This document shows, one piece after another, positions 29,676 through 51,540 of a stretch of DNA of 64,000 nt. The first letter of the stretch is position 1. The number at the start of each line of letters is the position of its first letter. The DNA is taken from positions 51,693 to 115,692 of the forward strand of contig JAAYHX010000002.1 in NCBI GenBank assembly GCA_012735215.1. Direction: 5' to 3'. The notes under the pieces are model-generated. The model had not been told where the DNA came from. It did not search any database and worked only from the letters and a program-made list of their open reading frames with translations. The position numbers were made by a program, and so were the translations under genes. Source of the DNA: Tissierellia bacterium (lineage in GTDB: Bacteria; Bacillota; Clostridia; Tissierellales; Tepidimicrobiaceae).

Positions 29676-31130
<1,455 letters not shown>

Positions 31131-31142
31131 GGAGGAGTTAGC

Positions 31143-32648
31143 TTGATATTAATATTAGACTTAGGTGGAAAATATAGTAATAGCTTAGGGAAGAGAATTA
31201 GACAGAGTAAAGTTTACTGTGAAATAGTCCCCTATAATCATCCTATAGAAGAGATCAAGTCAAAAAAGCCTGAAGGCATAATAATAGTTGGTGAAAGTGA
31301 CAAGGAATTTTCTGATTTAAATACAGATGTATTCAATTTAGGAATTCCAGTTATGGCTATTGGCTATGGTACAAGGTTTATAGAAGAAGCCTTTGGTGGC
31401 AGTTCAACTAAGTCCCTTGGCAATGGATATAACTTTGAGTCTGTCCATGTGGATAGGGAAAGCCCCATATTCAATGGCATGAAGGAGAACCTAAATATGT
31501 GGATGGATATGGATTGCGTATTTGAAACCATTCCTGAAGGCTTCGAAAAGATAGCAGAATTAGGGTCTAATGTAGTAGCCATAGGAAAAGAGGACAGCAA
31601 GATATATGGGGTGAAATTCCATCCAGAAGTGGAAGGTTCAACAGATGGGGAATATATAATTGACAACTTCCTATTTAAAGTATGTAACTGTGATAAAAGC
31701 TGGAATCTAGAAGAGTTCATCGCCAATAGCATAGAAGAGATAAGAAGGAAGGTTGGTCAAAAGAAGGCCTTATGTGCTTTGTCTGGTGGAGTTGACTCAT
31801 CTGTTGCAGCAGTATTGGTCCATAAAGCAATTGGGGATAAACTAGTATGCGTATTTGTGGACCATGGATTGCTTAGAAAGAACGAAAAGGAACAAGTTAT
31901 AGATACCTTTAGGGAAAAGTTCCATATGAATCTAATAGCTGTGGATGCAAAGGTTAGGTTCTTAAGCAAGCTGAAAGGAGTAACAGATCCGGAAGAGAAA
32001 AGGAAGATTATAGGAGAAGAGTTTATAAGAGTATTCGAAGAAGAGAAGAATAAGCTTACTGATATTGATTTCTTAGTACAAGGAACCATTTATCCAGATA
32101 TAATAGAATCTGGATTTGATGGCAATAGGGTAGTAAAAAGCCATCACAATGTAGGAGGCCTTCCAGAGGATATGGACTTCCAGCTGATAGAACCACTAAG
32201 ACAGCTATTTAAGGATGAGGTAAGGGAAGTAGGAAGGTTACTTGGAATATCCGAGGAAATAGTAAATAGGCAGCCCTTCCCAGGTCCTGGCCTAGGAGTT
32301 AGAGTACTAGGAGAAGTAACAGAGGAGAAGCTTGAAATATTGAGGGAAGCGGATCATATATTTAGAGAAGAAATTGACAAGGCCAACCTAAAGGATAAAA
32401 TATGGCAGTATTTTGCTGCAATTCCTGATATAAGGTCTGTAGGGGTAATAGATGGTGAGAGGACTTATAACTATACCATTATACTAAGAGCAGTAAACAG
32501 TGTGGATGCCATGACTGCTACTTGGGCAAGGATACCTCTTGAAGTTTTAGATAAGATTTCAAAGAGGATAACCAGTGAAGTACCAAGGGTTAACAGGGTA
32601 GTATATGATATAACTGATAAGCCTCCAGCTACTATTGAGTGGGAATAA
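31143..32648 (+). CDS. guaA: GMP synthetase with degenerate glutaminase domain
   Basis: This 501-aa enzyme aminates XMP to GMP with ATP. It starts at TTG after AAGGAGGAG. The class I glutaminase domain (1-190) is clearly recognisable but its GICYG nucleophile motif reads AIGYG, so Cys is replaced by Gly74 (bases 31362-31364). FGSQY is LGGKY and the SGGP oxyanion stretch is VGES. The triad HPE (KFHPEV) remains. The synthetase domain is intact: PP-loop ALSGGVDSSV, GLRKNEKE, QPFPGPGLGVR and the C-terminal dimer region ending KPPATIEWE. It should therefore make GMP from free ammonia but not hydrolyse glutamine (inference from family mechanism). Confidence 0.93.
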   Translation: MILILDLGGKYSNSLGKRIRQSKVYCEIVPYNHPIEEIKSKKPEGIIIVGESDKEFSDLNTDVFNLGIPVMAIGYGTRFIEEAFGGSSTKSLGNGYNFESVHVDRESPIFNGMKENLNMWMDMDCVFETIPEGFEKIAELGSNVVAIGKEDSKIYGVKFHPEVEGSTDGEYIIDNFLFKVCNCDKSWNLEEFIANSIEEIRRKVGQKKALCALSGGVDSSVAAVLVHKAIGDKLVCVFVDHGLLRKNEKEQVIDTFREKFHMNLIAVDAKVRFLSKLKGVTDPEEKRKIIGEEFIRVFEEEKNKLTDIDFLVQGTIYPDIIESGFDGNRVVKSHHNVGGLPEDMDFQLIEPLRQLFKDEVREVGRLLGISEEIVNRQPFPGPGLGVRVLGEVTEEKLEILREADHIFREEIDKANLKDKIWQYFAAIPDIRSVGVIDGERTYNYTIILRAVNSVDAMTATWARIPLEVLDKISKRITSEVPRVNRVVYDITDKPPATIEWE

Positions 32649-32650
32649 TC

Positions 32651-32682
32651 AAAACCGTGATGACTTTCATCGCGGTTTTTTT
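32651..32682 (+). terminator. guaBA terminator
   Basis: A 13-bp stem (32651-32663 with 32667-32679) has a 3-nt loop and a T-run. Confidence 0.9.
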
Positions 32683-32740
32683 GTTTGCTGGAATTAACTA
32701 GTGTTTTATTAGAAAATGCCCTGCTCTAATCTGTAGAGCC

Positions 32741-32998
32741 AGCTTTCTGTTTATGATTTTAAGGCATGTAGTCAAGGCATACAGCAAAGTTCGAGCCTCC
32801 GGCTCAAAGATTTGTGAAGTATCACGGCTTGTGAAACCGATTTGCGTAACCGCTTTCGCTTAAGACGCAAATCTTATGGTTTCCCTGCACCAGATACTTC
32901 AATCAAATCTTCTCGAGTCGGCTCTCATCTTTGCATGTATACCTTTTGCTTCAGTTTGGCTAAAGGCTTAATCTATAAAGCAAAGATCGACTCTGGAG
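32741..32998. repeat. 260-bp fold-back repeat, copy 2
   Basis: It is closely similar to 28371-28630, with about one base change per line of sequence inside the hairpin arms. AGCTTTCTGT opens it and ACTCTGGAG closes it. Some changes are compensated or sit in loops (ACTGCTTACGC versus ACCGCTTTCGC). It lies between convergent guaA and the DUF2935 gene and fills most of the 383-bp gap. The 76-codon open frame at 32842-33072 is incidental. Confidence 0.85.
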
Positions 32999-33031
32999 AA
33001 AATGGAAGAAAGCATCCCACAAGGCCTATCC

Positions 33032-33955
33032 CTATTTCCTATCCTCCTTTAAATATTCCTTTAAGAGCCTAATATACCTATTAGCCTCCCTAAGCACATG
33101 ATCCGCTAATAATGGATTCAAGATTCCCTTTATCTCACATTTCAATAGGCCTTCAGTGCTGTCTTTTTTAAATTCCATTAGTTCCCTTGCTGCCTTTAGA
33201 TTTTTCTCTGTTACCCTTTCGATATCCTTCTTATCAGCTTCCTTGGTTTCCTTTAGCAACTTCTCAAACATTTCAGCAAATCTGTTGGCCATCTTCATTA
33301 GTTCCTCTTCTGAAGGATCTAGAAGACCTCTTATAAACTCAGCATGATCTTCCATGATATGGTTCCAGAATATTTGCTTTTCTATTATCTTCTTCTTGGG
33401 AACTTTTTTATCCTGTAAGTCAAGTAAAAGCTCCATATAGAATTTTGTTTCTCTTAATAGATGATCTAGCATTTCTGGATAGATGAATATAGCTAATTGA
33501 CAATCTGCCACATTTGCTATGATATCCTCACTGTATTTGATTACATCCATCAGTAGATTCATAATACGGCTGTTTAAGTCATAAACCTGCTCTTCTAGAT
33601 GATGGTCATGGATACTTGCCTCTTCCATGTAGGGGAAATTCAGCTGTTCTTTGGTTATGTTCTTATTTATGCAAGCTCCAAATAGGGACTCAAACTTGAC
33701 TTCTGCATCCAGGGTATAAGGGGTTACAAACTCTCTGGACTCTATAGCTTTTTTACTTATATTCCCTCTTGCCAAGTCTGTAGTTTCCTTTAAAAGGGAT
33801 TCAAAGGATATTTTCATATTGTCAGCTTCCAATATCAGGTGGCTTTCCTTTATAGGAAGACTGATTTCTGTAAATATCATATGTTCCTTTATGATTCTGG
33901 TGAAGAACAAATTCAATTCTAATGACATTTCTATGAATTCCTTAGCCTCTAACAT
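33032..33955 (-). CDS. DUF2935 domain protein
   Basis: This 307-aa, wholly helical protein has two similar halves, each with FFTRIIKEHMIFTE/HDHHLEEQ and WNHIMEDHAEFIRGLLDPSEEEL. The repeated His/Glu pattern suggests a ferritin- or hemerythrin-like metal bundle. DUF2935 proteins occur in Bacilli and Clostridia without known function. The ATG at 33955 is preferred because AAGGAGGGTG precedes it; an ATG 18 bases upstream overlaps that site. Confidence 0.85.
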   Translation of the reverse strand: MLEAKEFIEMSLELNLFFTRIIKEHMIFTEISLPIKESHLILEADNMKISFESLLKETTDLARGNISKKAIESREFVTPYTLDAEVKFESLFGACINKNITKEQLNFPYMEEASIHDHHLEEQVYDLNSRIMNLLMDVIKYSEDIIANVADCQLAIFIYPEMLDHLLRETKFYMELLLDLQDKKVPKKKIIEKQIFWNHIMEDHAEFIRGLLDPSEEELMKMANRFAEMFEKLLKETKEADKKDIERVTEKNLKAARELMEFKKDSTEGLLKCEIKGILNPLLADHVLREANRYIRLLKEYLKEDRK

Positions 33956-34104
33956 AAGCACCCTCCTTACCATAATGTAGCTATTAAATGTATATTTTAC
34001 TTAGACTAGAATTATTACATCATTGAGACTTTACATTTATTGGATGTGGCAATATAGAAAAATCATATATTATTCTGATAAGTAAAAAAAAATTTAAATA
34101 TCAA

Positions 34105-34143
34105 TTGATAAAATCTTGACAAACTTTATCCAATTGGTATAAT
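34105..34143 (+). promoter_or_regulatory. hydrogenase promoter with candidate Rex operator
   Basis: TTGACA (34116-34121), 16 nt, TATAAT (34138-34143) is an almost ideal promoter 44 bases before the first gene. TTGATAAAATCTTGACAA (34105-34122) matches TTGTTAA-N4-TTAACAA with one mismatch per half and covers the -35. An overlapping inverted repeat (34102-34112 with 34125-34136) also surrounds the -35. Confidence 0.6.
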
Positions 34144-34186
34144 CATAGTTGCAAGCCTTAAAACCAATATAGAAAGGATGAAGTAA

Positions 34187-34675
34187 ATGGTGGATAAAAT
34201 GATGGATAAAGTTGACAAAGTAATTGAACTTTATGGCAAGGAACAATCTTCTATCATTACCATATTGCAGGAACTACAGAACGAGTTCAGATATTTACCA
34301 GTTGAAGTACTGGAGAGAGTATCGGAAAAAATGGATATAAGTCCAGCAAAGCTATTTGGAATTGCAACCTTTTATGAAAACTTTTCTCTAAATCCAAAGG
34401 GGAAATATCTAATCAAAATTTGTGATGGAACGGCTTGCCATGTTAAAAAATCCATACCTGTTTTAGAGGCCATAAGGGAAGAATTGTCTCTAACAGGAGA
34501 AAAACAAACAACAGATGATTTGTTATTTACAGTGGAAACAGTATCCTGCTTGGGATCCTGTGGCCTAGCACCAGTAATGACCATAAATGATGCAGTATAT
34601 GGAGAGCTGACTCCAGAGAGAGCAGTAGAAATAATCAGGCAGCTAAAGGAGGGACAAGGAAATGAAGATAAGTAG
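34187..34675 (+). CDS. NuoE/HydC-like [2Fe-2S] subunit of NAD-linked hydrogenase
   Basis: This 162-aa thioredoxin-like ferredoxin has the cysteine set CDGTACHVKKS and CLGSCGLAP, which bind one [2Fe-2S] cluster. The N-terminal helix region (LQELQNEFRYLPVEVLERVSE) is typical of NuoE. It passes electrons in the HydABC electron-bifurcating hydrogenase or the related NADP-reducing complexes. It overlaps the next gene by 14 bases. Expression is probably Rex-controlled. Confidence 0.93.
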   Translation: MVDKMMDKVDKVIELYGKEQSSIITILQELQNEFRYLPVEVLERVSEKMDISPAKLFGIATFYENFSLNPKGKYLIKICDGTACHVKKSIPVLEAIREELSLTGEKQTTDDLLFTVETVSCLGSCGLAPVMTINDAVYGELTPERAVEIIRQLKEGQGNEDK

Positions 34676-36533
34676 TATATCAGAGTTCAAAAAAATGAGC
34701 GACTTTTATAGAAAGTCCCTACAAAAACAATACAAGAAAGTAATCGTGTGTGGAGGTACTGGATGTGTTGCTGGTGGCTCCCTTAAGGTATACGAGAGGT
34801 TAAAAAACCTAATAGAGGAAAGGGGTATCCTGGCTGAAGTTGACCTAGAAAAGGAACAGGAAGGTATTGGAGTTAAGAAGAGTGGTTGCCATGGCTTCTG
34901 TGAAAAGGGACCTTTAGTAAGGATTGAGCCTAATAAGTATCTTTATATAAAGGTCAAACCTGAAGATTGTGAAGAGATTGTTAATGAGACTTTGATAAAC
35001 AATAGGCCTGTAGAAAGGCTGATGTATAGATTTAATGGAGATATTTATGAAACACAAGAATCCATACCCTTCTATGAAAAACAGACTAGGATTGTGCTAG
35101 AACACTGTGGACATATAGACGCAGAATCAATACAAGAGTACATAGCAAATGATGGATATACAGCCCTAATTAAAGTATTAGAAGAAATGACCCCAGAGGA
35201 AGTATGCAAGGAGATAGTTGATTCTAACCTAAGGGGTAGAGGTGGTGGAGGTTACCCAACTGGAAAGAAATGGTCCCAGGTTCTTTCCTACCCATCAGAG
35301 GTTAAATATGTAGTCTGCAATGGAGACGAGGGAGACCCTGGAGCTTTCATGGATAGAAGCATCATGGAAGGAGATCCTCATAGCCTAATTGAAGGGATGA
35401 CTATAGCTGCCTATGCAACCAGAGCTACAGAGGGTTATATCTATGTAAGGGCAGAATATCCCCTAGCAGTTAAAAGGCTTACAACAGCCATAGAGCAGGC
35501 TAGAGAAATGGGGCTGTTAGGCAAGAATATATTAGGAACTGGTCTATCCTTTGATATTCACATAAACAAAGGGGCAGGAGCCTTTGTATGTGGTGAAGGT
35601 AGTGCCTTGATGGCTTCTATTCAAGGGGAAAGGGGTATGCCTAGGGTAAAGGTTAAGAGAACCGTAGAAGAAGGCCTATGGCAGAAACCTACTGTAATGA
35701 ACAATGTGGAAACCTATGCAAATGTTAGACATATAATCACCAAGGGTGCTGATTGGTTTAGATCCTTTGGTACAGAAAGCAGCTCAGGTACTAAGGCTTT
35801 TGCCTTAAGTGGTAATGTAAACAATACAGGCCTTATTGAGGTACCTATGGGTGCTACCCTGAGGGAAATAATATTTGATATTGGAGGCGGCATCAAGGGA
35901 GGTAAAAAATTTAAAGCTGTACAAATCGGGGGGCCTTCTGGTGGATGTTTGATGGAGGATCACTTGGACATGCCTCTAGACTTTGACTCCTTGAAGGATG
36001 TAGGAGCTATGATTGGTTCTGGAGGTATGGTAGTGCTAGATGAGGATACTTGTATGGTTTCTGTGGCAAGATTCTTCATGAACTTCACCCAAAATGAGTC
36101 CTGTGGAAAATGTATCCCCTGTAGAGAGGGAACCAAGAGGATGCTTCAGATTTTAGATAAGATCATAGAAGGAAAAGGAAAAATGAAGGATTTAGATCTA
36201 TTAGAAGAATTGGCAGATACCATAACTAACACTGCCCTTTGCGGCCTTGGCAAATCTGCAGCAAATCCTGTTATATCTTCAATGAGATACTTTAGGGATG
36301 AGTACATCCAACACATAGTGGATAAAAGATGTCCAACCAAGAACTGTAGCAAGCTTCGAACAATAGAAATCGATCCTGAAATATGTAAAGGCTGTAGCAA
36401 ATGCAGCAGATCATGTCCTGTTGGTGCAATTGATGGAAAAGTTAAGGAAGTATTTAGAATAGATCAAAGCAAATGTATAAAATGTGGTGCTTGCATGGAA
36501 GCTTGTCCATTTGCAGCAATAAGGGAGGCGTAG
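34662..36533 (+). CDS. NuoF/HydB-like flavoprotein subunit of NAD-linked hydrogenase
   Basis: This 623-aa subunit is the NAD(H)-binding flavoprotein. The N-terminal thioredoxin-like [2Fe-2S] domain has VCGGTGCVAGG and KSGCHGFCEKGP. The FMN/NADH core has GRGGGGYPTGKKW and CNGDEGDPGAFMDR. A [4Fe-4S] site is CGKCIPCREG. The C-terminus adds two ferredoxin motifs (CKGCSKCSRSCP, CIKCGACMEACP). This is the full HydB layout. AAGGAGGGAC precedes the start, which lies inside the upstream gene. The next gene starts 3 bases after the stop. Confidence 0.95.
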   Translation: MKISSISEFKKMSDFYRKSLQKQYKKVIVCGGTGCVAGGSLKVYERLKNLIEERGILAEVDLEKEQEGIGVKKSGCHGFCEKGPLVRIEPNKYLYIKVKPEDCEEIVNETLINNRPVERLMYRFNGDIYETQESIPFYEKQTRIVLEHCGHIDAESIQEYIANDGYTALIKVLEEMTPEEVCKEIVDSNLRGRGGGGYPTGKKWSQVLSYPSEVKYVVCNGDEGDPGAFMDRSIMEGDPHSLIEGMTIAAYATRATEGYIYVRAEYPLAVKRLTTAIEQAREMGLLGKNILGTGLSFDIHINKGAGAFVCGEGSALMASIQGERGMPRVKVKRTVEEGLWQKPTVMNNVETYANVRHIITKGADWFRSFGTESSSGTKAFALSGNVNNTGLIEVPMGATLREIIFDIGGGIKGGKKFKAVQIGGPSGGCLMEDHLDMPLDFDSLKDVGAMIGSGGMVVLDEDTCMVSVARFFMNFTQNESCGKCIPCREGTKRMLQILDKIIEGKGKMKDLDLLEELADTITNTALCGLGKSAANPVISSMRYFRDEYIQHIVDKRCPTKNCSKLRTIEIDPEICKGCSKCSRSCPVGAIDGKVKEVFRIDQSKCIKCGACMEACPFAAIREA

Positions 36534-36535
36534 AC

Positions 36536-38245
36536 ATGATGAAGGGTACAATGATTATAGATGGAAAAAAAGTTGAGTTTAATGGAGAGAAGAATGTATT
36601 AGAAGTAGTGAGAAAAGCAGGCATAGAGCTACCAACCTTTTGCTTTCACTCAGAACTAAGCGTATATGGTGCTTGTAGAATGTGTATTGTAGAGGACAAG
36701 TATGGCAAGATACTTACCTCCTGTTCTACAGTACCCAAGGATGGCATGGAAATATACACTCAAACTCCAAGGCTGTTAAGATATAGAAAGAACATATTGG
36801 AACTACTGCTAGCCAACCACGATAGGGACTGTACTACCTGTGAAAAGACAGGGGATTGTACTCTGCAGGCTCTAGCAGGCAAGTTTGGCATCAATAAGAT
36901 CAGGTTTGGTGGCCTTATAGATAGGGAACCTGTAGACAACAGCAGTCTAGCCATTGTTAGGAATCCAAACAAGTGTATTCTTTGTGGAGACTGTGTCAGA
37001 ATGTGTGAAGAAATACAAGGGGTTGGAGCCTTGAGCTTTGCCTATAGGGGCTCTAAGATGAAAGTTTCAACAGCCTTTGATAGGCCAGTTGCAGATACTA
37101 ACTGCATCAACTGTGGACAGTGTAGAGCTATTTGCCCTACTGGAGCTATTTCCATAAAGAATGAAACTGATAGATTCTGGGATTTGGTGTTTGACAAGAA
37201 TAAGAGAGTAGTAGTTCAAATAGCCCCAGCAGTTAGAGTTGCCTTAGGAGAGGAATTTGGCATGGAGCCAGGGGAAATTTCCATTGGCAAAATAATAGCT
37301 GCCCTTAAGAAGATGGGGGTAGACGAGGTATATGATACAGCCTTTGGTGCTGACATGACTGTAATAGCAGAGTCACAAGAGTTTGTTGAAAGGCTCTCAC
37401 AAGGAAAGAATCTGCCCCTATTTACCTCCTGCTGTCCAGGTTGGGTTAAGTTTGCGGAAAATAGATTTTCAGACATGCTAGACAATATATCTAGCTGCAA
37501 ATCTCCACAGCAAATGTTTGGTTCTGTAATTAAGGAATTCTACAAACAAAGGGATGAAGAGGAAGGAAAAGAGACAGTAGTAGTTTCAATCATGCCCTGT
37601 ACAGCTAAGAAGGCAGAAGCCGCTAGGGAAGAATTCCAAACAGATGGCATAAGGGATGTGGAACTTGTAATTACAACTCAGGAATTGGCCATGCTAATTA
37701 AGGAAGTTGGGTTAGTATTTGATGAATTAGAAGATGAATCCTTTGATATGCCCTTTGGACTAGCTAGTGGTTCTGGAGTAATATTTGGATCCACTGGTGG
37801 AGTTGCAGAGGCTGTTGTAACAAGGCTCTTGAAAGAGAAGCCTGATCATGTGGATAAGGAGCTAATTTTCAAACAAGTAAGGGGATTGGATAACATAAAA
37901 GAAGCAAGCTTCAATATTGATGGCAAGGAAGTAAAAATAGCAGTAGTCCATGGACTAAAAAATGCAGAAGATCTAATAAGGAGTATTAAAGCTGGAGAGA
38001 AAGAATACCACATGATAGAAGTCATGGCTTGTCCAGGTGGATGTATAGCTGGAGGAGGCCAGCCAGTCCCAATGACTAGAAAGGTTAGGGAGAAAAGATC
38101 CATGGGCCTTTACAGGCTTGATAGATCCTCATATGTTAAGAGCTCTGAGGAAAACCCAGCAATTAACCACCTATTTGAGACCCTACTAAAGGATAACCAT
38201 GAAATACTTCATGTGCATAAGGTTGAAAAAAATACAAACTTGTAG
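36536..38245 (+). CDS. hydA: [FeFe] hydrogenase catalytic subunit, HydA
   Basis: This 569-aa catalytic subunit has the three H-cluster motifs: TSCCPGWVKF, MPCTAKKAEA and EVMACPGGCIAGGGQP. The N-terminal electron-entry domains are a [2Fe-2S] ferredoxin (CFHSELSVYGACRMC), a His/Cys cluster (HDRDCTTCEKTGDC) and two [4Fe-4S] sites (CILCGDCVRMC, CINCGQCRAICP). With the two upstream subunits it forms a trimeric hydrogenase of the type that oxidises NADH and reduced ferredoxin together to make H2. The start is ATG at 36536 after AGGGAGG. No terminator is visible before the purine promoter. Confidence 0.96.
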   Translation: MMKGTMIIDGKKVEFNGEKNVLEVVRKAGIELPTFCFHSELSVYGACRMCIVEDKYGKILTSCSTVPKDGMEIYTQTPRLLRYRKNILELLLANHDRDCTTCEKTGDCTLQALAGKFGINKIRFGGLIDREPVDNSSLAIVRNPNKCILCGDCVRMCEEIQGVGALSFAYRGSKMKVSTAFDRPVADTNCINCGQCRAICPTGAISIKNETDRFWDLVFDKNKRVVVQIAPAVRVALGEEFGMEPGEISIGKIIAALKKMGVDEVYDTAFGADMTVIAESQEFVERLSQGKNLPLFTSCCPGWVKFAENRFSDMLDNISSCKSPQQMFGSVIKEFYKQRDEEEGKETVVVSIMPCTAKKAEAAREEFQTDGIRDVELVITTQELAMLIKEVGLVFDELEDESFDMPFGLASGSGVIFGSTGGVAEAVVTRLLKEKPDHVDKELIFKQVRGLDNIKEASFNIDGKEVKIAVVHGLKNAEDLIRSIKAGEKEYHMIEVMACPGGCIAGGGQPVPMTRKVREKRSMGLYRLDRSSYVKSSEENPAINHLFETLLKDNHEILHVHKVEKNTNL

Positions 38246-38253
38246 AAATTTAG

Positions 38254-38281
38254 TTGACAAAGAAAAAGGATATGTTATGAT
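38254..38281 (+). promoter_or_regulatory. promoter of the purine operon
   Basis: TTGACA (38254-38259), 16 nt, TATGAT (38276-38281) begins 9 bases after the hydA stop and places the transcript start just before the riboswitch. Confidence 0.75.
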
Positions 38282-38304
38282 AGAGGTATAAAAGTTAATA
38301 GATT

Positions 38305-38374
38305 AGCTCATATAAATTCCATAATATGGTTGGAATGTATCTACAAAGTGACCGTAAATCACTTTACTATGAGT
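38305..38374 (+). ncRNA. guanine aptamer of the first tandem purine riboswitch
   Basis: This has the purine-riboswitch fold: P1 arms around CTCATATAA and CTATGAG, a P2 loop with ATAATATGG, J2/3 TATCTAC, and a P3 hairpin AAAGTG-ACCGTAAAT-CACTTT. The specificity base before TATGAG is C, which pairs with guanine; adenine types have T. Confidence 0.95.
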
Positions 38375-38464
38375 GAAAGTGTACCTAGGGTTCCGGGGAG
38401 ATCTTCTCGTCTGGTCCGAGCGGTACAAGTGCCTCTATCGGCATTACACCGAAGGGAGAAAAGC
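38375..38464 (+). ncRNA. ykkC-class aptamer, probably PRPP type, of the first tandem riboswitch
   Basis: The ykkC core motifs are CTAGGGTTCCG, CTGGTCCGAGCGGTACA and ACACCGAAGGGAGAAAAGCCC. ykkC RNAs sense guanidine, ppGpp or PRPP by subtype. Position directly behind a guanine aptamer and before purC matches the published tandem guanine-PRPP arrangement, so PRPP is the likely ligand. The exact 3' edge overlaps the terminator arm. Confidence 0.88.
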
Positions 38465-38510
38465 CCAGTCGGGTAGGTTTCACTTACCTATCTGACTGGT
38501 TTTTTGTTTT
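38465..38510 (+). terminator. expression-platform terminator of riboswitch 1
   Basis: CCAGTCGGGTAGGT pairs with ACCTATCTGACTGG (two non-Watson-Crick positions), followed by six Ts. The left arm overlaps the 3' part of the ykkC aptamer, so ligand binding can block terminator formation. Downstream, 38511-38587 shows no further element. Confidence 0.88.
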
Positions 38511-38587
38511 TAGTTGGACTTTAAGCAACAGGCTTTTATACATAAATCAGCAGATAGTTTGCAAAATAATGATATGGGGTGATTGGT

Positions 38588-39286
38588 ATGAAATTGGTTT
38601 ATGAGGGCAAAACTAAAGACGTGTACCAGTTGGAAGATGGAAACTATCTTTTGAAATTTAAGGATGATGTAACAGGACAGGACGGAGTTTTTGATCCAGG
38701 AGCAAATACTGTAGGCCTTACTATTGAAGGAGCAGGAAAGGCTGGCCTTAAGCTTAGTAAGTACTTCTTTGAGAAACTAAATAGTCTTAATATACCTACC
38801 CACTATATAGACTGCAACCTTGAAGAAAACACCATGACGGTTCTTCCTGCTAAGGCCTTTGGCAAGGGTGTGGAAGTCATATGTAGGTACAGGGCTGTAG
38901 GCAGCTTCATAAGACGTTATGGCTTATATGCTAAGGAAGGTCAAGTACTTGATGGCTATGTGGAGGTTACCCTTAAAGATGATGAGAGAAATGACCCACT
39001 TATCACTGATGAAGCCTTAGAGATGCTAAACATAATGACCAAGGAAGAATACAAGATACTTACCGACCTTACAAGGCAGATATCTGGGATCATAAAAGAA
39101 GATCTGGCTGAAAAGGGTCTTGAGCTGTACGATATAAAGCTGGAGTTTGGAAGGATTGGAAAAGATAATCACATTGCTTTAATAGATGAGATTTCTGGAG
39201 GTAATATGAGGGTATATAAAGAAGGAGAATATGTAGAGCCCTTATTGCTGACCAAGCTCATCTTAGGAGAGACTACAAAAGAATAG
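38588..39286 (+). CDS. purC: SAICAR synthetase
   Basis: This 232-aa enzyme joins CAIR and aspartate with ATP. The start LVYEGKTKDVYQ, FKDDVTGQDG, ICRYRAVGSFIRRYG and KLEFGRIGKDNHIALIDEISG are PurC motifs. The ATG at 38588 follows GGGGTGATT; a GTG nine bases earlier is less well placed. It is the first gene of the operon, behind riboswitch 1, and is separated from purL by a second riboswitch. Confidence 0.96.
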   Translation: MKLVYEGKTKDVYQLEDGNYLLKFKDDVTGQDGVFDPGANTVGLTIEGAGKAGLKLSKYFFEKLNSLNIPTHYIDCNLEENTMTVLPAKAFGKGVEVICRYRAVGSFIRRYGLYAKEGQVLDGYVEVTLKDDERNDPLITDEALEMLNIMTKEEYKILTDLTRQISGIIKEDLAEKGLELYDIKLEFGRIGKDNHIALIDEISGGNMRVYKEGEYVEPLLLTKLILGETTKE

Positions 39287-39290
39287 CATG

Positions 39291-39361
39291 CGCTCATATA
39301 AGTTCCATAATATGGTTGGAATGTATCTACTAAATGACCGTAAATCATTTAGCTATGAGCG
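39291..39361 (+). ncRNA. guanine aptamer of the second tandem purine riboswitch
   Basis: Starting five bases after the purC stop, this copy keeps CGCTCATATAA, ATAATATGG, TATCTAC, a P3 stem TAAATG/CATTTA with ACCGTAAAT, and CTATGAGCG. The key base is C (39353), so guanine is the expected ligand. P1 pairs CGCTCAT (39291-39297) with ATGAGCG (39355-39361). Confidence 0.94.
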
Positions 39362-39445
39362 AAAGTGTACCTAGGGTTCCGGAGATCTTCTCGTCTGGTC
39401 CAAGCGGTACAAATGCAATTTCTGGCATTACACCGAAGGGAGAAA
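39362..39445 (+). ncRNA. ykkC-class aptamer, probably PRPP type, of the second tandem riboswitch
   Basis: The motifs CTAGGGTTCCG, CTGGTCCAAGCGGTACA and ACACCGAAGGGAGAAAAGCCC are kept. It has GGAGATC where copy 1 has GGGGAGATC, and a changed variable arm (ATGCAATTTCTGGCAT). Ligand assignment is by context as for copy 1. Confidence 0.87.
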
Positions 39446-39498
39446 AGCCCAGTCGGGTAGGTTTCGCTTTACCTACTCGATTGGGCTATTTAAATTTA
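39446..39498 (+). terminator. expression-platform hairpin of riboswitch 2
   Basis: AGCCCAGTCGGGTAGGT (39446-39462) pairs with the segment ending at 39487 with two mismatches. The tail ATTTAAATTT is T-poor compared with riboswitch 1, so this hairpin may terminate weakly or also affect the nearby purL ribosome site (AAGGAGG). Confidence 0.7.
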
Positions 39499-39510
39499 AG
39501 GAGGAGAAAT

Positions 39511-42500
39511 ATGAAAAGGATAATCATTGAGAAAAAGGAACAGGTGAATGTAAAGGCTAGGGAGTTATTGGAGGAATTTAAGGGTTATCTAGGTATTGAA
39601 GGCTTAGAAAAAGTTAGAGTATTAAATGTATATGAGATATTTAACGCTGCAGATGAACAGGTGAAAGAGATAATAGATACTGTTTTGTATGAACCTCAAT
39701 TAGATACCTTCTATGAAGGAAGTATAGAGCTTGCAGAAGATGAAAAGGCATTTAGGGTGGAAAGTTTAAGAGGTCAATATAATCAGAGAGAAGATGCAGT
39801 CAACAATATGGTATCTAGCTATCTGGGATTTGAAGAAGTTACAGTTAAGCATTCAGAGATAATCATTATAAAAAATATATCCCAGGAAGATCTAGACAAG
39901 GTAAAGGCCTATCATATTAATCCTACCGAATCAAGAGAAGTTCCCTTAGACTATGTAGCCCATGAAAAGGAGGGGCAGGCACCAGATCAGGTTGAAATTG
40001 TTGAAGGCTTTTTAGCCATGAACATTAATGAACTGAATATGGTAAAAGAAGAATTGGGTTTGGGAATGGATATAGAAGATCTAGCTTTTTGTCAGAATTA
40101 TTTTAGAGAAGAGCTTAGGGATCCCACAGTGGCAGAATTGAAGATAATAGACACCTATTGGTCTGACCACTGCAGACACAGGACCTTTGCCACAGAGCTA
40201 GTTCATATTGACTTAGACGAAGGCCAATATAGGGAAATATTTGAAAAGGCAATTGCTGAATACTTGTCCTCTAGGGAATACGTATATGGGGATAAGAAAA
40301 AACCAATTTGTCTCATGGATTTAGCTACTATAAACATGAAGGAAATAAAGAAAAAGGGTTTATTAGAAGACAAGGAGGAATCAGATGAGATAAATGCAGC
40401 CTCCATAGAAGTAGATGTGGATGTAGATGGGAATATTGAAAAATGGCTGCTTATGTTTAAAAATGAAACCCATAATCATCCTACAGAAATTGAACCTTTT
40501 GGAGGAGCCAATACCTGCCTTGGAGGAGCTATAAGGGATCCTTTATCAGGCAGATCCTATGTATATCAAGCCATGAGGATTACAGGGGCAGCTGATCCAA
40601 GAAGTAAATATGAGGAAACCTTAAAGGGCAAGATTCCACAAAGAAAGATAACTACAACTGCCATGGAAGGCTATAGTTCCTATGGATACCAGATTGGCAG
40701 TACCACAGGATATGTTCAGGAATTTTATCATGAGGGGTTTGTAGCTAAGAGGATGGAATTAGGAGCCTTAGTAGCTGCTGCACCAAAGGATTGGGTTGTA
40801 AGGAAAAAACCTGAGAAAGGAGATCTAGTCCTACTTATTGGAGGCAGGACTGGTAGGGATGGTATTGGGGCAGCTGTTGGCTCATCAAAGGAGCATACGG
40901 ACAAAGCTCTAGAGGTATCTGGTGCAGAAGTACAAAAAGGCAATCCAATAATTGAGAGAAAGATAGTGAGACTATTTAGAAGGCCAGAAGTAACAAGGCT
41001 CATTAAGAAGTGTAACGATTTTGGTGCCGGTGGAGTTGCTGTTGCAGTAGGGGAGTTGGCCGATGGTATATGTATCGATTTAGATAAGGTCCTATTAAAA
41101 TATCCAGGACTAAACTGCTGGGAAACAGCCTTGGCCGAATCACAGGAGAGAATGGCCGTATTGATTTCAAGAAAGGATATAAGGGAGTTTAGAAAATACT
41201 TACAAGAAGAGGATGTTGAAGGGACAGTAATTGCTGAGGTAAATGATGAGAATAGACTTCGCATGGTATGGAGGGGCAAGAAGGTAGCTGAAATAAAAAG
41301 GGAATTCCTAGATACCAGTGGAGTTAACAAAAAGAGCAAAGTGAAAATAATATCACCTAGGGATAGACTATACTTAAAAGAAAATCCAGATCACATTTCA
41401 GGAAAAGACATAGTAAGGGATTTCATAGAGAATATGGCTCAATTAAATACTGGATCTCAAAAAGGCCTCATTGAGAGATTTGATCATACAGTAGGTGCTG
41501 GCACAGTACTTATGCCACTAGGAGGTAAGCATAAGCTTACACCTGAAGAAGGCATGGTGGCAAAGCTTCCAGTATTAAAGGGCAATACTAGTACCTGTTC
41601 CATAATGACTTGCGGTTATGATCCCTTCTTATCAGAGTGGAGTCCTTTCCATGGAGGATATTATGCAGTAATTGAGTCCATTGCAAAAGTCGTAGCCCTA
41701 GGAGGAGATTTTAGAAGGATAAGATTGTCCTTCCAAGAGTATTTTGAAAGATTAGGAACAGATCCAGTAAAATGGGGCAAACCATTTAGTGCTCTATTAG
41801 GAGCCTTCCTTGTACAGAAGAATTTAGATATTCCTAGCATTGGTGGAAAGGACAGCATGAGCGGAACCTTTGAAGATATAGATGTGCCACCTACCCTTGT
41901 AAGTTTTGCAGTAACCACAGAAAAAATAGACAGGATAGTTTCTAAAGAATTTAAAAAGCCAGGTTCAAAGGTGGTAGTGGTTAATGTTTCAATAGATGAA
42001 AAGGGATTAGTGGATTTCGCAAAGCTTAAGAAAAGCTATATAAGGGTAAAGGAATTAATAGATAAAGGACATGTACTTTCCAGCTCCACTATAAGATTTG
42101 GAGGAATTGCAAGGAGCATATGTGAAATGGCCTTTGGAAATAGAATCGGCTTTGAATTTGCTTCCCAGGTATTGGACAGAATATATAAACCACTATACGG
42201 CTCCATTGTACTTGAAATAGAGGAAGAAGCCAACCTAGAAGACCTGTTTGAAGGTATAGATTACACATTAATAGGAAGAACCATAGAGGCTGAACACATA
42301 AAACTAGAAGGAGAAATAATACTACTAGATGACATAATTGAAGCCTGGGAAAGAACCTTGAAGGAAGTATTTCCAGTTAAGGAGGAAAGAAGGGTAAAGG
42401 ATACTGAGATAGTATACAGTGGTGGAAGTAGGATTAAGAGGATTAAATCTCTTGCAAAGCCTAAGGTTCTCATTCCAGTATTTGCTGGTACCAATGGAGA

Positions 42501-43212
42501 ATACGATATGGCACTCCAGTTTGAAAGGGCTGGGGCAGAAGTGGAGACCTTTGTGTTTAAAACCTTGTCCCAAGATTTAATAGAGGAATCCCTAAGGGAA
42601 CTAGCTGATAAGATCAAAGAATGCCAAATCTTAGGTTTTGCCAATGGACATATTTTAGGGAATGAACCAGAAACATCAGGCAAGCTAATAAAGCTCTTGT
42701 TTGAAAAACCAGTCTTGAAGGAAGCAGTAAACGAGCACTTGAAGGTAAGAGATGGATTGGTATTAGGTATAGGCTCAGGTCTAAACGCCCTAATAAAGCT
42801 AGGACTTATAGAAAAGGGAGAAATTTCAAGTATAGATGAGTCTTCACCATATATAGCCCCTAATGAATCAGGCAAATTCATTTCCACCCTAGTCCACGTA
42901 AAGGTGGTATCAAACCTTTCACCTTGGCTAAGCGGCATGAAGGTAGGGGACCTATATACAGTTCCTATAGCTACCAGGGAAGGCAGGATAATATTAGGAG
43001 GAAGGGATTTGGCACCAGGTCAAATATCCACCCAGTATGCAGAATTAAATCCTACTGGTTCCCAACTAGGTATAGAATCCTTAACCAGTCCAGAGGGCAG
43101 GGTATTTGGTACCGTAACTAGCATAGACAGAATAGGTGAGGACATCTATAAAAATGTTGAAATCAAGGGTATTCCAAATATTTTCCAAGCTGGAGTTAAC
43201 TATTACAAATAG
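39511..43212 (+). CDS. purL: FGAM synthase, single-chain type, with degenerate glutaminase domain
   Basis: This 1233-aa protein converts FGAR to FGAM with ATP and ammonia. The N-terminal and synthase domains are normal (TYWSDHCRHRTF, FKNETHNHPTEIEPFGGA, GGKDSMSGTFED). The C-terminal class I glutaminase domain (about 980-1233) is present but broken at its catalytic centre: the nucleophile motif GICNG reads GIGSG, with Gly1088 (bases 42772-42774), and the GHSER-type His is Ser (bases 43120-43122) in GTVTSIDR. PGTNCEYD is AGTNGEYD. Ammonia-dependent synthesis is inferred. ATG at 39511 follows AAGGAGGAG; an in-frame start at 39334 would run through the riboswitch and is rejected. Confidence 0.95.
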   Translation: MKRIIIEKKEQVNVKARELLEEFKGYLGIEGLEKVRVLNVYEIFNAADEQVKEIIDTVLYEPQLDTFYEGSIELAEDEKAFRVESLRGQYNQREDAVNNMVSSYLGFEEVTVKHSEIIIIKNISQEDLDKVKAYHINPTESREVPLDYVAHEKEGQAPDQVEIVEGFLAMNINELNMVKEELGLGMDIEDLAFCQNYFREELRDPTVAELKIIDTYWSDHCRHRTFATELVHIDLDEGQYREIFEKAIAEYLSSREYVYGDKKKPICLMDLATINMKEIKKKGLLEDKEESDEINAASIEVDVDVDGNIEKWLLMFKNETHNHPTEIEPFGGANTCLGGAIRDPLSGRSYVYQAMRITGAADPRSKYEETLKGKIPQRKITTTAMEGYSSYGYQIGSTTGYVQEFYHEGFVAKRMELGALVAAAPKDWVVRKKPEKGDLVLLIGGRTGRDGIGAAVGSSKEHTDKALEVSGAEVQKGNPIIERKIVRLFRRPEVTRLIKKCNDFGAGGVAVAVGELADGICIDLDKVLLKYPGLNCWETALAESQERMAVLISRKDIREFRKYLQEEDVEGTVIAEVNDENRLRMVWRGKKVAEIKREFLDTSGVNKKSKVKIISPRDRLYLKENPDHISGKDIVRDFIENMAQLNTGSQKGLIERFDHTVGAGTVLMPLGGKHKLTPEEGMVAKLPVLKGNTSTCSIMTCGYDPFLSEWSPFHGGYYAVIESIAKVVALGGDFRRIRLSFQEYFERLGTDPVKWGKPFSALLGAFLVQKNLDIPSIGGKDSMSGTFEDIDVPPTLVSFAVTTEKIDRIVSKEFKKPGSKVVVVNVSIDEKGLVDFAKLKKSYIRVKELIDKGHVLSSSTIRFGGIARSICEMAFGNRIGFEFASQVLDRIYKPLYGSIVLEIEEEANLEDLFEGIDYTLIGRTIEAEHIKLEGEIILLDDIIEAWERTLKEVFPVKEERRVKDTEIVYSGGSRIKRIKSLAKPKVLIPVFAGTNGEYDMALQFERAGAEVETFVFKTLSQDLIEESLRELADKIKECQILGFANGHILGNEPETSGKLIKLLFEKPVLKEAVNEHLKVRDGLVLGIGSGLNALIKLGLIEKGEISSIDESSPYIAPNESGKFISTLVHVKVVSNLSPWLSGMKVGDLYTVPIATREGRIILGGRDLAPGQISTQYAELNPTGSQLGIESLTSPEGRVFGTVTSIDRIGEDIYKNVEIKGIPNIFQAGVNYYK

Positions 43213-43223
43213 GAGGATGTAAA

Positions 43224-43706
43224 ATGAAGGTTGGTATTGTAATGGGAAGTATCTCTGATAAGGAGTTGGCTAATAAAACGGTAAAAATATTAGATAAGTT
43301 TGGAGTAGATTATGAACTAAGGGTTATATCAGCCCATAGAACTCCCCATATTGCTTCTGAGTATGCACAAAAAGCTGAAAAAAGAGGAATAGAGGTAATC
43401 ATTGCTATAGCTGGTAAGGCAGCCCATTTAGCTGGTGTAATAGCTGGTATTACTCCACTGCCAGTTATAGGGCTTCCTGCTAAATCATCCACCATGGATG
43501 GACTAGATTCTCTACTATCAGTAGTGCAGATGCCTAAAGGAGTTCCAGTGGCCACTGTCGCCATTGACGGAGGGGAGAATGCAGGCCTTTTGGCAGTACA
43601 GATTTTATCTGTCAAGTATCCGGAGTTGAGGCGTAAGTTTAAGGAATATAAAGAAGAGCTGGCAGAAGATGTAATAAGGATGGATGGAGAAATCCAGTCC
43701 CTATAA
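43224..43706 (+). CDS. purE: 5-(carboxyamino)imidazole ribonucleotide mutase
   Basis: This 160-aa class I-like PurE moves carboxylate to form CAIR. Motifs are GSISDKELANKT, SAHRTPH, AIAGKAAHLAGVIAG and GLDSLLSVVQMPKGVPVATVAI. No purK lies in the operon, so N5-CAIR supply or direct CO2 use is unresolved. The start follows TAGGAGGATG, 11 bases after purL. Confidence 0.95.
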   Translation: MKVGIVMGSISDKELANKTVKILDKFGVDYELRVISAHRTPHIASEYAQKAEKRGIEVIIAIAGKAAHLAGVIAGITPLPVIGLPAKSSTMDGLDSLLSVVQMPKGVPVATVAIDGGENAGLLAVQILSVKYPELRRKFKEYKEELAEDVIRMDGEIQSL

Positions 43707-43718
43707 GGAGGGTGTACT

Positions 43719-45053
43719 TTGAGCGGAATAATAGGTATCTATAGCAAAGAAAGTAACGACATACCCCAAGTAACCTACTATGGCCTATATGCACTACAGC
43801 ACAGAGGACAGGTAAGTTGTGGAATGGCGGTAAACAACAACGGTTTCATAGATTACTACAAGGGCTTAGGACTCATTCATGAGGTATTTACCCAAGATGT
43901 CTTGAGCAGGTTTATAGGAAATATGGCCATAGGCCATGTAAGATATGGTTCCCAGTACAAGGGGAGAGAGGCAAGTAATATCCAGCCACTAGCTTCTGGC
44001 TATAAGAAGGGGGCCCTAGCCATATCACTTGACGGAAGGATAATAAACTCCAAGGAACTAAAGGATGAAATGGAAGCTGAAGGGGTAATATTCCAAACTG
44101 ATATGGATGCGGAAGTAATAGCTAAATTAATAGCTAAATACAGTCATATGACTTTTGAAGAGGCTCTCTTGACAGCAATATCTAGGATTAAGGGTTCCTA
44201 CAGCATGATTATCATGACCCAGGATGAGCTAATAGGAGCTAGGGATCCCTATGGAATAAAACCTCTAGCCCTAGGGAAATTGAGGGATGGCCATGTACTG
44301 GCCTCTGAATCCTGTGCCTTTGATACTATTGGGGCAGAACATCTAAGGGATATAAAACCAGGAGAGGTTGTTTCCATAGATAAGAATGGAGTTAGGGTTT
44401 TGGAAGAGAGACCCGAGAATACATGCCACTGCCTCTTTGAATTCATATATTTTGCTAGGCCAGACAGCTATTTAGATGGAAGAAGTGTCTATCTGGCAAG
44501 GGTTGAGTCTGGGAAACAGCTTTTTAGGGAACATGACACTGAGGCTGATATAGTCATAGGAGCCCCTGATTCTGGTATCGAAGCTGCCATAGGCTATGCT
44601 GAGGAATCAAATATTCCTTATGGAGAGGGGCTTATAAAAAATAGATATATAGGCAGGACCTTTATTCAACCAACCCAAAAGTTAAGAGAAATTGGAGTTC
44701 GAATTAAGCTAAATGCACTAAATGAAAATATAAGGGGAAAGAGAGTTGTACTAGTTGATGATTCCATAGTAAGGGGAACTACCATAAAGAGGACAGTTCA
44801 GATTTTAAGGGAGGCCGGTGCAAAGGAGATCCATGTGAGAGTAAGTTCTCCTCCAGTAACCCATACCTGCTATCTGGGAATGGATACTCCTGATAAGGAT
44901 GACCTGATTGCAGCCAATATGACTGTGGAAGAGATCTGTAAAGAGATAGGAGCTGATTCCCTATATTACCTATCCCTAGAAGGGCTAATTGAGGCCATAG
45001 GAAAGAATATGGGATTCTGTACTGGTTGTTTCAACGGTAGATATCCTATATAA
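43719..45053 (+). CDS. purF: amidophosphoribosyltransferase with Ser in place of the catalytic Cys
   Basis: This 444-aa protein makes phosphoribosylamine from PRPP. It starts at TTG after AAGGAGGGTG. The glutaminase nucleophile of PurF is an N-terminal Cys (CG-x-x-GI); here the sequence is M-S-GIIGIYS, so Ser2 (bases 43722-43724) replaces it. The glutamine site is also altered: GHxRYST is GHVRYGSQ and NGNLVN is DGRIIN. The phosphoribosyltransferase domain is intact (VVLVDDSIVRGTT), and likely Fe-S cysteines remain (CHCLFEFIYFARPDS, CTGCFNGRYP). Ammonia use is likely, but an Ntn Ser could in principle act as a nucleophile. Confidence 0.94.
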   Translation: MSGIIGIYSKESNDIPQVTYYGLYALQHRGQVSCGMAVNNNGFIDYYKGLGLIHEVFTQDVLSRFIGNMAIGHVRYGSQYKGREASNIQPLASGYKKGALAISLDGRIINSKELKDEMEAEGVIFQTDMDAEVIAKLIAKYSHMTFEEALLTAISRIKGSYSMIIMTQDELIGARDPYGIKPLALGKLRDGHVLASESCAFDTIGAEHLRDIKPGEVVSIDKNGVRVLEERPENTCHCLFEFIYFARPDSYLDGRSVYLARVESGKQLFREHDTEADIVIGAPDSGIEAAIGYAEESNIPYGEGLIKNRYIGRTFIQPTQKLREIGVRIKLNALNENIRGKRVVLVDDSIVRGTTIKRTVQILREAGAKEIHVRVSSPPVTHTCYLGMDTPDKDDLIAANMTVEEICKEIGADSLYYLSLEGLIEAIGKNMGFCTGCFNGRYPI

Positions 45054-45116
45054 GGAACAGAATAGCTGACAGTGTTAATTGTGTAAATGGATAGATAAAC
45101 AAGATGAGGTGATAAA

Positions 45117-46759: not shown

Positions 46760-46763
46760 GGGC

Positions 46764-48293: not shown

Positions 48294-48304
48294 GAGGGTA
48301 TATT

Positions 48305-49564: not shown

Positions 49565-49576
49565 ATAGAATTAGAA

Positions 49577-49610: not shown

Positions 49611-49655
49611 TAACATAAGATAGCTAAGCCTAGGTATAAGAATAAAGGATAAGTC

Positions 49656-49684: not shown

Positions 49685-49869
49685 TGTAGCTATCCAAGTG
49701 GAATTTACAAATCCTTATTTTTATCTTCCTTTCCTATTCCCTACTTTGGTGGTTGTATAATAAAAATATTTGATTAATCTACATGATTTTGTGCAATATA
49801 CTGAATATAAACTATTTTTTTGCTTTTCACTACTAGGGTGAAAAATTGAAAAAACAAGGAGGTATGCAA

Positions 49870-51540
49870 GTGAAAACGGATGTTCAAATAGCTCAAGAGG
49901 CCAAGATGCTGCCAATCGTTGAGATAGCTAAGAAATTAGGCCTAGATGAGAACGATATTATTCAATATGGAAAGTATAAAGCAAAGATAAACTTGAAGGT
50001 GTTAGAAAGATTTAAGGATAAGGAAGATGGTAAGTTAGTACTTGTAACAGCTATTAACCCCACACCTGCAGGAGAAGGAAAAACTACAACCAACATAGGA
50101 CTTTCAATGGGATTAAATAAAATAGGGAAAACTGCTATTACAGCTATAAGGGAACCATCTCTAGGACCTAGTTTTGGAGTAAAGGGAGGAGCTGCAGGAG
50201 GAGGATATGCTCAAGTAGTACCTATGGAAGATATAAATCTTCACTTTACAGGAGATTTCCACGCAATAACCACTGCTCACAACTTGATTTCTGCAATGTT
50301 AGACAATCACATCCACCAAGGGAATCAGTTGAACATAGATCCTAGAAGAATAGTATGGAAAAGAGTTTTAGACCTAAACGACAGAGCCCTAAGAAATATA
50401 GTCGTAGGTCTTGGCGGAAGACCAAATGGTGTTCCTAGGGAAGATGGATTTGATATTACAGTTGCTTCTGAGATAATGGCTATTCTATGTTTAGCTGAAG
50501 ATTTAGAGGATCTAAAGGAAAGAGTAGGCAGAATAATTGTAGCCTACAGATATGATGGAAGCCCTGTATATGTGAAGGACTTGAAGGCTGAAGGTTCTGT
50601 TGCACTACTTATGAAGGATGCAGTTCATCCTAACCTTGTTCAAACATTAGAGAACACACCAGCCCTTGTACATGGCGGTCCTTTTGCCAATATAGCCCAT
50701 GGATGCAACTCCATTTTGGCAACTAAATTAAGCTTAAAGCTTGCTGACTACACAATTACAGAGGCAGGCTTTGGTGCTGACTTAGGAGCTGAGAAGTTCT
50801 TTGACATTAAATCAAGATTTGGCGATTTGAAACCAAATGTGGCTGTTATAGTAGCTACTGTCAGAGCTTTGAAACACCATGGTGGAGCTAAGAAAGATGA
50901 ATTGGGCAATGAGAACATAGATGCTCTTGCCAGAGGATTTGAAAACTTAGAAAAACACATAGAAAACGTAAATAAATTTGGAGTACCAGCTGTTGTAGCA
51001 ATCAACAGATTCCCAACAGATACAGAGGCCGAATTAGATTTCTTGATGAAGAAATGTAAAGAATCAGGTGCAGAAGCTGTATTATCTGAAGTATGGGCTA
51101 AGGGAGGAGACGGAGCAATAGAGTTAGCAGAGAAAGTAGTTGAAATATGTGAAGGCAGAGATTCCAACTTTAAGCCATTATATGATGTAGAAGAGTCCAT
51201 TATGGATAAGATAGAGAAAATTGCAGTTGAAGTATACGGTGCTGATGGTGTTGAGTATACTAAGTCCTGCCTAAAGAAGATAAAGCAGATTGAAGAGCTT
51301 GGCTTGGATAAGATGCCAATCTGTATGGCAAAAACTCAATATTCACTATCTGACGACCCAACCCTATTGGCAAGACCAAAAGGATTTAAGATTACCGTTA
51401 GAGATATAAGGGTATCCAATGGGGCAGGATTCCTAGTTGCATTAACTGGAGAGATAATGACCATGCCAGGATTACCAAAGGTACCTGCAGCAAACAACAT
51501 AGACATACTGCCAAGTGGAGAAATAGTAGGCCTATTCTAG
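49870..51540 (+). CDS. fhs: formate-tetrahydrofolate ligase
   Basis: This 556-aa enzyme makes 10-formyl-THF from formate, THF and ATP. It has [20 protein letters not shown] (P-loop), [22 protein letters not shown] and [17 protein letters not shown] at 49870 is chosen because AAGGAGG lies 7 bases before it; ATG at 49864 is too close to that site. It supplies formyl groups for purN and purH and one-carbon flux, and lies directly after the purine operon but with its own promoter. Confidence 0.97.

Follow-up and report, generated by a model that had tools for sequence, protein, structure and literature searches.

In the 64,000-nucleotide stretch of Tissierellia bacterium DNA analysed here (contig JAAYHX010000002.1 of assembly GCA_012735215.1; the window), guanosine monophosphate (GMP) synthetase (GuaA), formylglycinamidine ribonucleotide (FGAM) synthase (PurL) and phosphoribosyl pyrophosphate (PRPP) amidotransferase (PurF) have all lost the catalytic cysteine of their glutaminase sites. 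In the textbook pathway, three steps of purine synthesis depend on glutamine; without it, these three enzyme families are known to accept ammonia as donor. Since all three purine amidotransferases lack their nucleophile, the pathway likely takes its nitrogen from ammonia. We put at roughly 0.8 the probability that purine nitrogens N9 and N3 and the 2-amino group of GMP derive from free ammonia and not from glutamine.

The nucleophile is replaced by glycine in GuaA and PurL (both GGC) and by serine in PurF (AGC), as an earlier note on this DNA had reported. In GuaA, the motif reads AIGYG instead of the GICYG of intact copies, and the model of the N-terminal glutaminase (guaA_Nterm) scores 146 bits, below its cut-off of 172. 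The class I glutamine amidotransferase domain is still recognised by PF00117, and the triad histidine and glutamate (HPE) are kept. In PurL, GIGSG stands in place of GICNG and the Cys-His-Glu triad reads Gly-Thr-Glu; the histidine codon has become ACC, threonine, and not serine as the earlier note had it. Among the 120 nearest PurL homologues, 104 have glycine at the cysteine position and 98 of these 104 have threonine for the histidine. The purF gene begins at a TTG codon preceded by AAGGAGG, and the next codon encodes serine in place of Cys1. A further change, additional to those recorded before, lies in the HNGN motif of PurF, where an asparagine that we take to be the oxyanion-hole residue (Asn101 in E. 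coli numbering) is replaced by aspartate. The synthetase and transferase motifs are intact, as had been claimed. GuaA retains the P-loop ALSGGVDSS, the lid motif KSHHNVGG and its C-terminal domain, and aligns along its length with the solved GuaA 7sbc. PurL matches the FGAM synthase family TIGR01857 at full length, synthetase part included. PurF carries the PRPP motif DDSIVRGTT and the transferase domain (TIGR01134, PF00156), aligns with B. subtilis PurF 1ao0 over residues 3-443, and has four cysteines that align with those of the B. subtilis enzyme. In some f4 genomes of the order (e.g. L181, L182, L185), PurL frames reach about 1640 residues, some 400 more than in the window.

The source genome (1.885 Mb, 25 contigs, 98.96% complete) offers no intact second copy of guaA, purQ/purL or purF in our searches. 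GuaA and PurL match once each. PurF matches twice, once at full length and once more weakly than E 3.4e-31 among the matches listed, so that the other match is not a second full-length PurF. PF00117 finds GuaA only and PF13507 the PurL C-terminus only; no stand-alone PurQ was found. The N-terminal domain of cytidine triphosphate (CTP) synthase (PyrG), PF06418, was not found either, as in 27 of 150 genomes of the order, source included. Since PF06418 has no match in this nearly complete genome and PF00117 none besides GuaA, CTP must come by salvage or by an unrecognised route. Of the other glutamine enzymes that the earlier note had named, PyrG was thus not found, GlmS is intact (MCGIVGYIG, HNGIIEN) and glnA is present, and a general loss of glutamine use is dismissed on the last two grounds. 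GlmS is the only intact site among the source-genome amidotransferases searched for, GatCAB, AsnB and NadE not being among those searched.

The three losses co-occur in relatives. From the 150 genomes drawn from the order (source included), genes were read in 102 and never in 48; all three genes were read in 78, and 24 of the 102 miss at least one of the three readings. Because the genomes to read were chosen by hand and the listed loci favour close relatives, the counts are not prevalences: sites are lost or altered in all three enzymes in 35 of the 78 genomes, in none in 26 and in a mixed pattern in 17. When only loss of the cysteine or of the domain is counted, the numbers become 28, 27 and 23. 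In the 78-genome count, PurF copies with Cys1 but without Asn101 are taken as lost, G124 (one intact and one Ser1 PurF) is scored as PurF-intact, G093 (two PurFs, GuaA unread) is left out, and G081 is scored as PurL-lost although its second PurL copy (G081:C1:1574052-1577768) is unread. In the family of the source organism (f1), all 15 fully read genomes, source included, are lost or altered in all three, and so are 17 of 20 in family f5.

The earlier note had called the sites degenerate. This is apt for the nucleophiles, which are gone, but not for PurF as a whole, where the Ser1/Asp101 pair is conserved and convergent. The 120 nearest PurFs were taken from 7999 scored; such sets hold the proteins most similar to those of the window, so its clade is over-represented in them. 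Ser1 is found in 119 (with one gap) and Asp101 in all 120, with variable residues flanking Asp101-Gly102. Within the 119 Ser1 proteins, Arg26, Asp101 and Gly102 are invariant, Arg73 is kept in 117 and Asp127 in 118. The ratio of glutaminase to transferase divergence is 1.27 for Ser1/Asp101 copies versus 1.18 for intact ones, so constraint on the PurF glutaminase domain is nearly normal. Ser1 is encoded by AGY in 39 genomes and by TCN in 4, and the TCN set includes the G006/G037/G086 clade, which represents an independent origin of Ser1. In f4, G021 and G092 (less surely the long-branched G088) carry the pair amid Cys1/Asn101 sisters. Seven f1 and three f13 genomes have Cys1 together with Asp101, so the change of Asn101 can precede the loss of Cys1. 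Altered copies without the pair also occur (Gly1/Asn101 in G051, Cys1/Ser101 in G028). The near-invariance of the pair and its repeated origin with different serine codons indicate that the new site is not decaying. As a side observation, PurF of the f18 genomes G032 and G044 (L131, L129) groups with f5-type Ser1/Asp101 proteins, whereas their intact GuaA groups with f18 (compare L333, L334), which suggests that a purL-purF unit with sites already lost was transferred. In addition, two clostridial genomes (L421, L422) encode a PurF-like paralogue without Cys1 whose start reads GGLFGV plus DYHSHLGTSRGGMAV.

Serine is a normal nucleophile in other N-terminal nucleophile (Ntn) hydrolases. The five conserved pocket residues and the recurrence of the pair could thus also mean that Ser1 is a working nucleophile and that the pocket cleaves glutamine or a different amide, asparagine for example, in which case PurF would not be ammonia-dependent. 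We consider this unlikely. In E. coli PurF, replacement of Cys1 by Ala or Ser leaves no detectable glutamine activity while ammonia is still used (PMC3261824). Moreover, an aspartate in place of the oxyanion-hole asparagine would be expected to impair cleavage of an amide, and a serine nucleophile in PurF leaves the glycines of PurL and GuaA and the deletion of the GuaA domain unexplained.

In GuaA, the glutaminase domain shows a different course. Pairwise identity is 0.63 in the domain versus 0.82 in the rest among Gly copies, and 0.53 versus 0.62 among intact copies. The domain therefore appears more relaxed than the rest of the protein, in line with its later deletion. Most f1 genomes have the Cys-to-Gly change with the domain retained. 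Remnants of about 435 residues (total GuaA length) are found in G001 and three f13 genomes, and of about 412 residues in four f5 genomes. A GuaA of about 320 residues, with no glutaminase domain, occurs in most f5 genomes read, three of f9, two of f16, G078 and G082 of f1, G033 and G120; G117 (one contig), G022 and G105 are examples among nearly complete genomes. The stages often seem to run from the glycine replacement through shortened remnants to deletion of the domain. One genome (G081, locus L321) carries a pair of guaA genes separated by about 3 kb, of which one is intact and the other, 430 residues long, has a remnant domain. Database records label the GuaA of relatives 'glutamine-hydrolyzing'.

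The outright deletion in many relatives bears on whether a separate, unrecognised glutaminase docks on GuaA, PurL and PurF and supplies ammonia by way of their channels. The glutamine synthetase gene, the kept GlmS site and the retained glutaminase domains of PurF and PurL, which a docking surface would require, fit such a partner. However, GuaA has lost this surface in those relatives, and the source genome shows no further PF00117 or PF13507 domain (the search did not extend to glutaminases of other folds), so that a docking partner seems quite unlikely. It is very unlikely that the pathway is simply decaying in cells that live on salvaged purines, with the sites drifting. The relaxed and often deleted GuaA domain and the lack of a recognisable CTP synthase in the source genome would suit such decay, but the de novo genes stand uninterrupted behind two purine/ykkC-type aptamer pairs, the synthetase parts are well conserved, and the PurF pair is conserved and convergent. 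Sequencing or assembly error, conceivable in a draft contig, is a negligible explanation because similar replacements occur in other assemblies (the 35 genomes altered in all three, source included) and in database proteins such as the 120 nearest PurFs.

The losses have arisen repeatedly. On quick trees, some with long branches, the minimum number of changes is seven for PurF Cys1 and five for PurF Asn101 (90 rows), six for GuaA (92 rows) and four for the PurL cysteine (81 rows). Separate losses are seen in G149 for all three enzymes (its PurF may be acquired), in G058 (GuaA remnant, PurL Gly, PurF with Cys1 kept and Asp101), and in G033 for the GuaA and PurL sites. Beyond the order, the PurL cysteine is absent in 10 of the best 80 of at least 597 confirmed PurL loci, and three of the ten (L020, L030, L040) lie in a separate Clostridia branch with support 98. 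The L030 genome has lost all three sites (GuaA active centre deleted, PurL Ser, no Cys at the PurF position). The L040 genome has Gly and a deletion in GuaA and Gly in PurL, and its PurF keeps Cys and Asn101 but carries Gly where Asp127 normally lies. The L020 genome tells little, because it gave no GuaA match and a divergent paralogue is the only PurF-like match listed. Among the control genomes, L012, L014 and L022 have PurF with Cys1 and Asn101, and the PurF search in L018 gave the paralogue and GlmS only. The proposal that the losses co-occur across a clade is thus borne out in 35 of 78 genomes and also outside the clade, but not as a single event (at least seven, four and six changes in PurF, PurL and GuaA) nor as strict coupling (17 of 78 mixed).

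The loss is largely purine-specific among the amidotransferases read. PyrG keeps its cysteine in 57 of 66 genomes read and has Ser, Ala or Gly in nine. Seven of these nine are among the 35 triple-lost genomes; in the other two, G077 and G136, the GuaA domain is a remnant or absent, with PurF, or PurL and PurF, not read or not found. Conversely, the PyrG cysteine is kept in 22 of 29 triple-lost genomes with PyrG read, and in all 11 read among the 26 genomes without purine loss. GlmS has Cys1 and HNGIIEN in 30 of 30 genomes read. PyrG is ammonia-capable in vitro; GlmS is not known to use free ammonia. Since PyrG is mostly and GlmS always kept, the suggested order of loss is the purine enzymes first and PyrG later, with GlmS spared. 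In G121 the PyrG glutaminase domain seemed to be missing, but this was dismissed, as the short frame stops at a contig end. Five f1 genomes (G006, G037, G049, G057, G063) show the reverse of the source genome, with a Cys-bearing PyrG and no GlmS above the family cut-off among the matches listed.

Several observations weigh against a pathway-wide use of ammonia. The 17 mixed genomes comprise six with loss in PurF only, four in PurL and PurF, four in GuaA only, two in GuaA and PurF, and one in GuaA and PurL. Pairing tests on the trees have no power. For GuaA and PurL, five and four independent pairs gave the same direction in 3.5 and 2.8 on average (median p 0.25); for the pairings with PurF, five and four pairs gave 1.4 and 1.5 (median p 1 and 0.5), and tree-based co-loss has the least support for PurF. 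Of the further genomes examined, L002 combines an intact GuaA cysteine with loss of the PurL and PurF sites, while L054 and L056 keep the PurL cysteine with the GuaA domain eroded and missing, respectively. GuaA loss is therefore not tied to PurL loss and is common without it. In this ten-genome comparison, six of the eight PurL-lost genomes have lost GuaA as well, one (L002) has it intact and one (L020) gave no GuaA match; we dismissed it as evidence of coupling, as both PurL-intact genomes have an eroded or missing GuaA domain as well. In PurF, Arg73 and Asp127 presumably bind glutamine in the classical enzyme, and their retention hints at a possible remaining ability of the pocket to bind an amino acid. 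A high ammonia level does not by itself account for the bias towards purine enzymes, because the PyrG cysteine is kept in most genomes. Finally, GMP synthetases can need much NH4Cl, with a Km of up to 174 mM for the human enzyme (PMC10526850).

If purine nitrogen does come from ammonia, the following mechanism can be proposed. A steady high ammonia level would have relaxed the need for glutamine hydrolysis. Ammonia would bind directly to the sites for PRPP in PurF, for formylglycinamide ribonucleotide in PurL and for adenyl-xanthosine monophosphate in GuaA, a use of ammonia of which the classical enzymes are capable in vitro. The GuaA glutaminase domain would be of little further use and is possibly being deleted for that reason, and PyrG may have followed in some relatives. 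In PurF, the old pocket would have been kept and rebuilt: Ser1 and Asp101 are new, Arg73, Gly102 and Asp127 remain, and its likeliest role would be that of an entrance that binds ammonium, or of a sensor. An entrance is suggested because Asp101, where the oxyanion hole used to be, would disfavour an oxyanion and draw in a cation. The full proposal, that the order repeatedly converted purine synthesis to ammonia and that Cys1-to-Ser and Asn101-to-Asp changes rebuilt the PurF pocket into an ammonium-capturing entrance to the old channel, is tentative and on balance doubtful. The habitat may plausibly be rich in ammonia. Schnuerera ultunensis, presumably the later name of [Clostridium] ultunense, occurs in papers on ammonia-rich digesters, and a passing mention elsewhere describes it as an acetate oxidiser. 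An amino-acid-fermenting physiology had also been read from the window; its iorA, buk and gdhA-like genes fit an ammonia-rich cell but do not demonstrate one.

Single enzymes with these properties are known. Carbamoyl phosphate synthetase I (CPS1) is an established case: it keeps a dead glutaminase-like domain, in which the human form has Ser for the catalytic Cys, and uses external ammonia (PMC4655335). The window enzymes share its lost nucleophile, intact synthetase and still present domain. In contrast to CPS1, which is one animal enzyme, here a single bacterial pathway is affected repeatedly, in three enzymes whose glutaminase folds are of two unrelated kinds. PurF without Cys1 is likewise found as crenarchaeal PurF' (many with Ala or Val) and as Methanocorpusculum Mlab_0150 (Ser), and an ammonia-dependent enzyme is one possibility that the authors raise for PurF' (PMC3261824). 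However, these are extra copies beside a Cys-bearing PurF, and the archaeal PurQ cysteine is conserved in functional copies (PMC3261824), whereas here the sole full-length PurF is altered and the cysteines of PurL and GuaA are lost too. Single-domain nicotinamide adenine dinucleotide synthetase has no glutaminase domain and reportedly takes ammonia as its physiological donor; this form is judged ancestral (PMC3376133), whereas here glutamine use would have been lost. GMP synthetases and the lone ATPPase subunit accept external ammonia (PMC10526850). The two-subunit archaeal GMP synthetase has a lone synthetase polypeptide, like the 320-residue GuaA of relatives, and a separate glutaminase subunit (PMC10526850); a single PF00117 domain is present in each of four relatives with short GuaA (G062, G105, G117, G142). 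In the open-licence PMC literature, we found no description of a whole pathway converted to ammonia, the known cases being single enzymes such as CPS1 and NAD synthetase.

The genes lie in two groups on the window (Table 1). The guaB-guaA pair (29679-32648) is followed by a hydrogenase-like cluster and then by purC-purL-purE-purF-purM-purN-purH-purD and the formate-tetrahydrofolate ligase gene (38588-51540). The product of this ligase is a precursor of the formyl donor for PurN and PurH. By NCBIfam and Pfam assignment, the eight de novo genes from purC to purD stand in a row; purC itself gave no match in the NCBIfam search at 1e-40. Regulation of the operon looks normal, with aptamer tandems placed before purC and again before purL. 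RF00167 scores well above threshold at both, and RF00442 falls 4.5 and 6.6 bits under its threshold. Tandem guanine-PRPP aptamers are described as a logic gate for de novo purine genes (PMC5912903), and both tandems are probably of this type, their ligands being assigned by analogy with that account. The second pair lies partly inside the open reading frame (ORF) listed as the purL start. A purL start at 39334 was dismissed, as TIGR01857 begins at residue 61 of that ORF and the first part of the ORF crosses the riboswitch.

Table 1. Purine genes, glutaminase-site positions and aptamers in the window.
Feature	Position	Strand	Evidence or remark
guaB, inosine monophosphate dehydrogenase	29679..31130	+	TIGR01302 653 bits; directly upstream of guaA
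guaA, GMP synthetase	31143..32648	+	NF000848 688 bits, full-length match
GuaA class I glutaminase domain without nucleophile	about 31143-31691	+	PF00117 78.6 bits
GuaA nucleophile position, Gly (GGC) for Cys	31362..31364	+	
GuaA triad His and Glu (HPE), kept	31620..31628	+	His 31620, Glu 31626
Tandem purine and ykkC-type aptamers, before purC	38288..38473	+	
Purine aptamer of purC pair	38288-38389	+	RF00167 88.5 bits; probably guanine type
ykkC-type (probably PRPP) aptamer of purC pair	38374-38473	+	RF00442 58.5 bits, gathering 63
purC, SAICAR synthetase	38588..39286	+	PF01259 136 bits
Second tandem purine and ykkC-type aptamer pair, before purL	39274..39457	+	RF00167 83.7 bits, RF00442 56.4 bits
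purL, large FGAM synthase	39511..43212	+	TIGR01857 1537 bits over 1-1239
PurL C-terminal glutaminase domain without nucleophile	about 42457-43203	+	PF13507 140.6 bits, residues 983-1231
PurL nucleophile position, Gly (GGC) for Cys	42772..42774	+	
PurL triad, Thr (ACC, 42973-42975) for His; Glu 42979 kept	42973..42981	+	
purE	43224..43706	+	TIGR01162 207 bits
purF, PRPP amidotransferase, intact transferase	43719..45053	+	TIGR01134 490 bits, full-length match
PurF remodelled Ntn domain	to about 44408	+	
PurF position 1, Ser (AGC) for Cys	43722..43724	+	follows TTG start at 43719
PurF oxyanion-hole position, Asp (GAC) for Asn	44031..44033	+	
purM	45117-46145	+	TIGR00878
purN	46139-46759	+	TIGR00639
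purH	46764-48293	+	NF002049
purD	48305-49564	+	TIGR00877
formate-tetrahydrofolate ligase	49846..51540	+	NF010030 953 bits

Relatives are in culture, namely Keratinibaculum paraultunense and Tepidimicrobium xylanilyticum, both Tissierellales, and [Clostridium] ultunense DSM 10521, and the ammonia reading is therefore testable now. If it is true, a pathway-wide change to ammonia that happened repeatedly would mean that cells can do without glutamine channelling, and natural ammonia-only forms of PurF, PurL and GuaA would become available for mechanistic work and engineering. Glutaminase sites would then serve as a genomic marker of ammonia-rich life.

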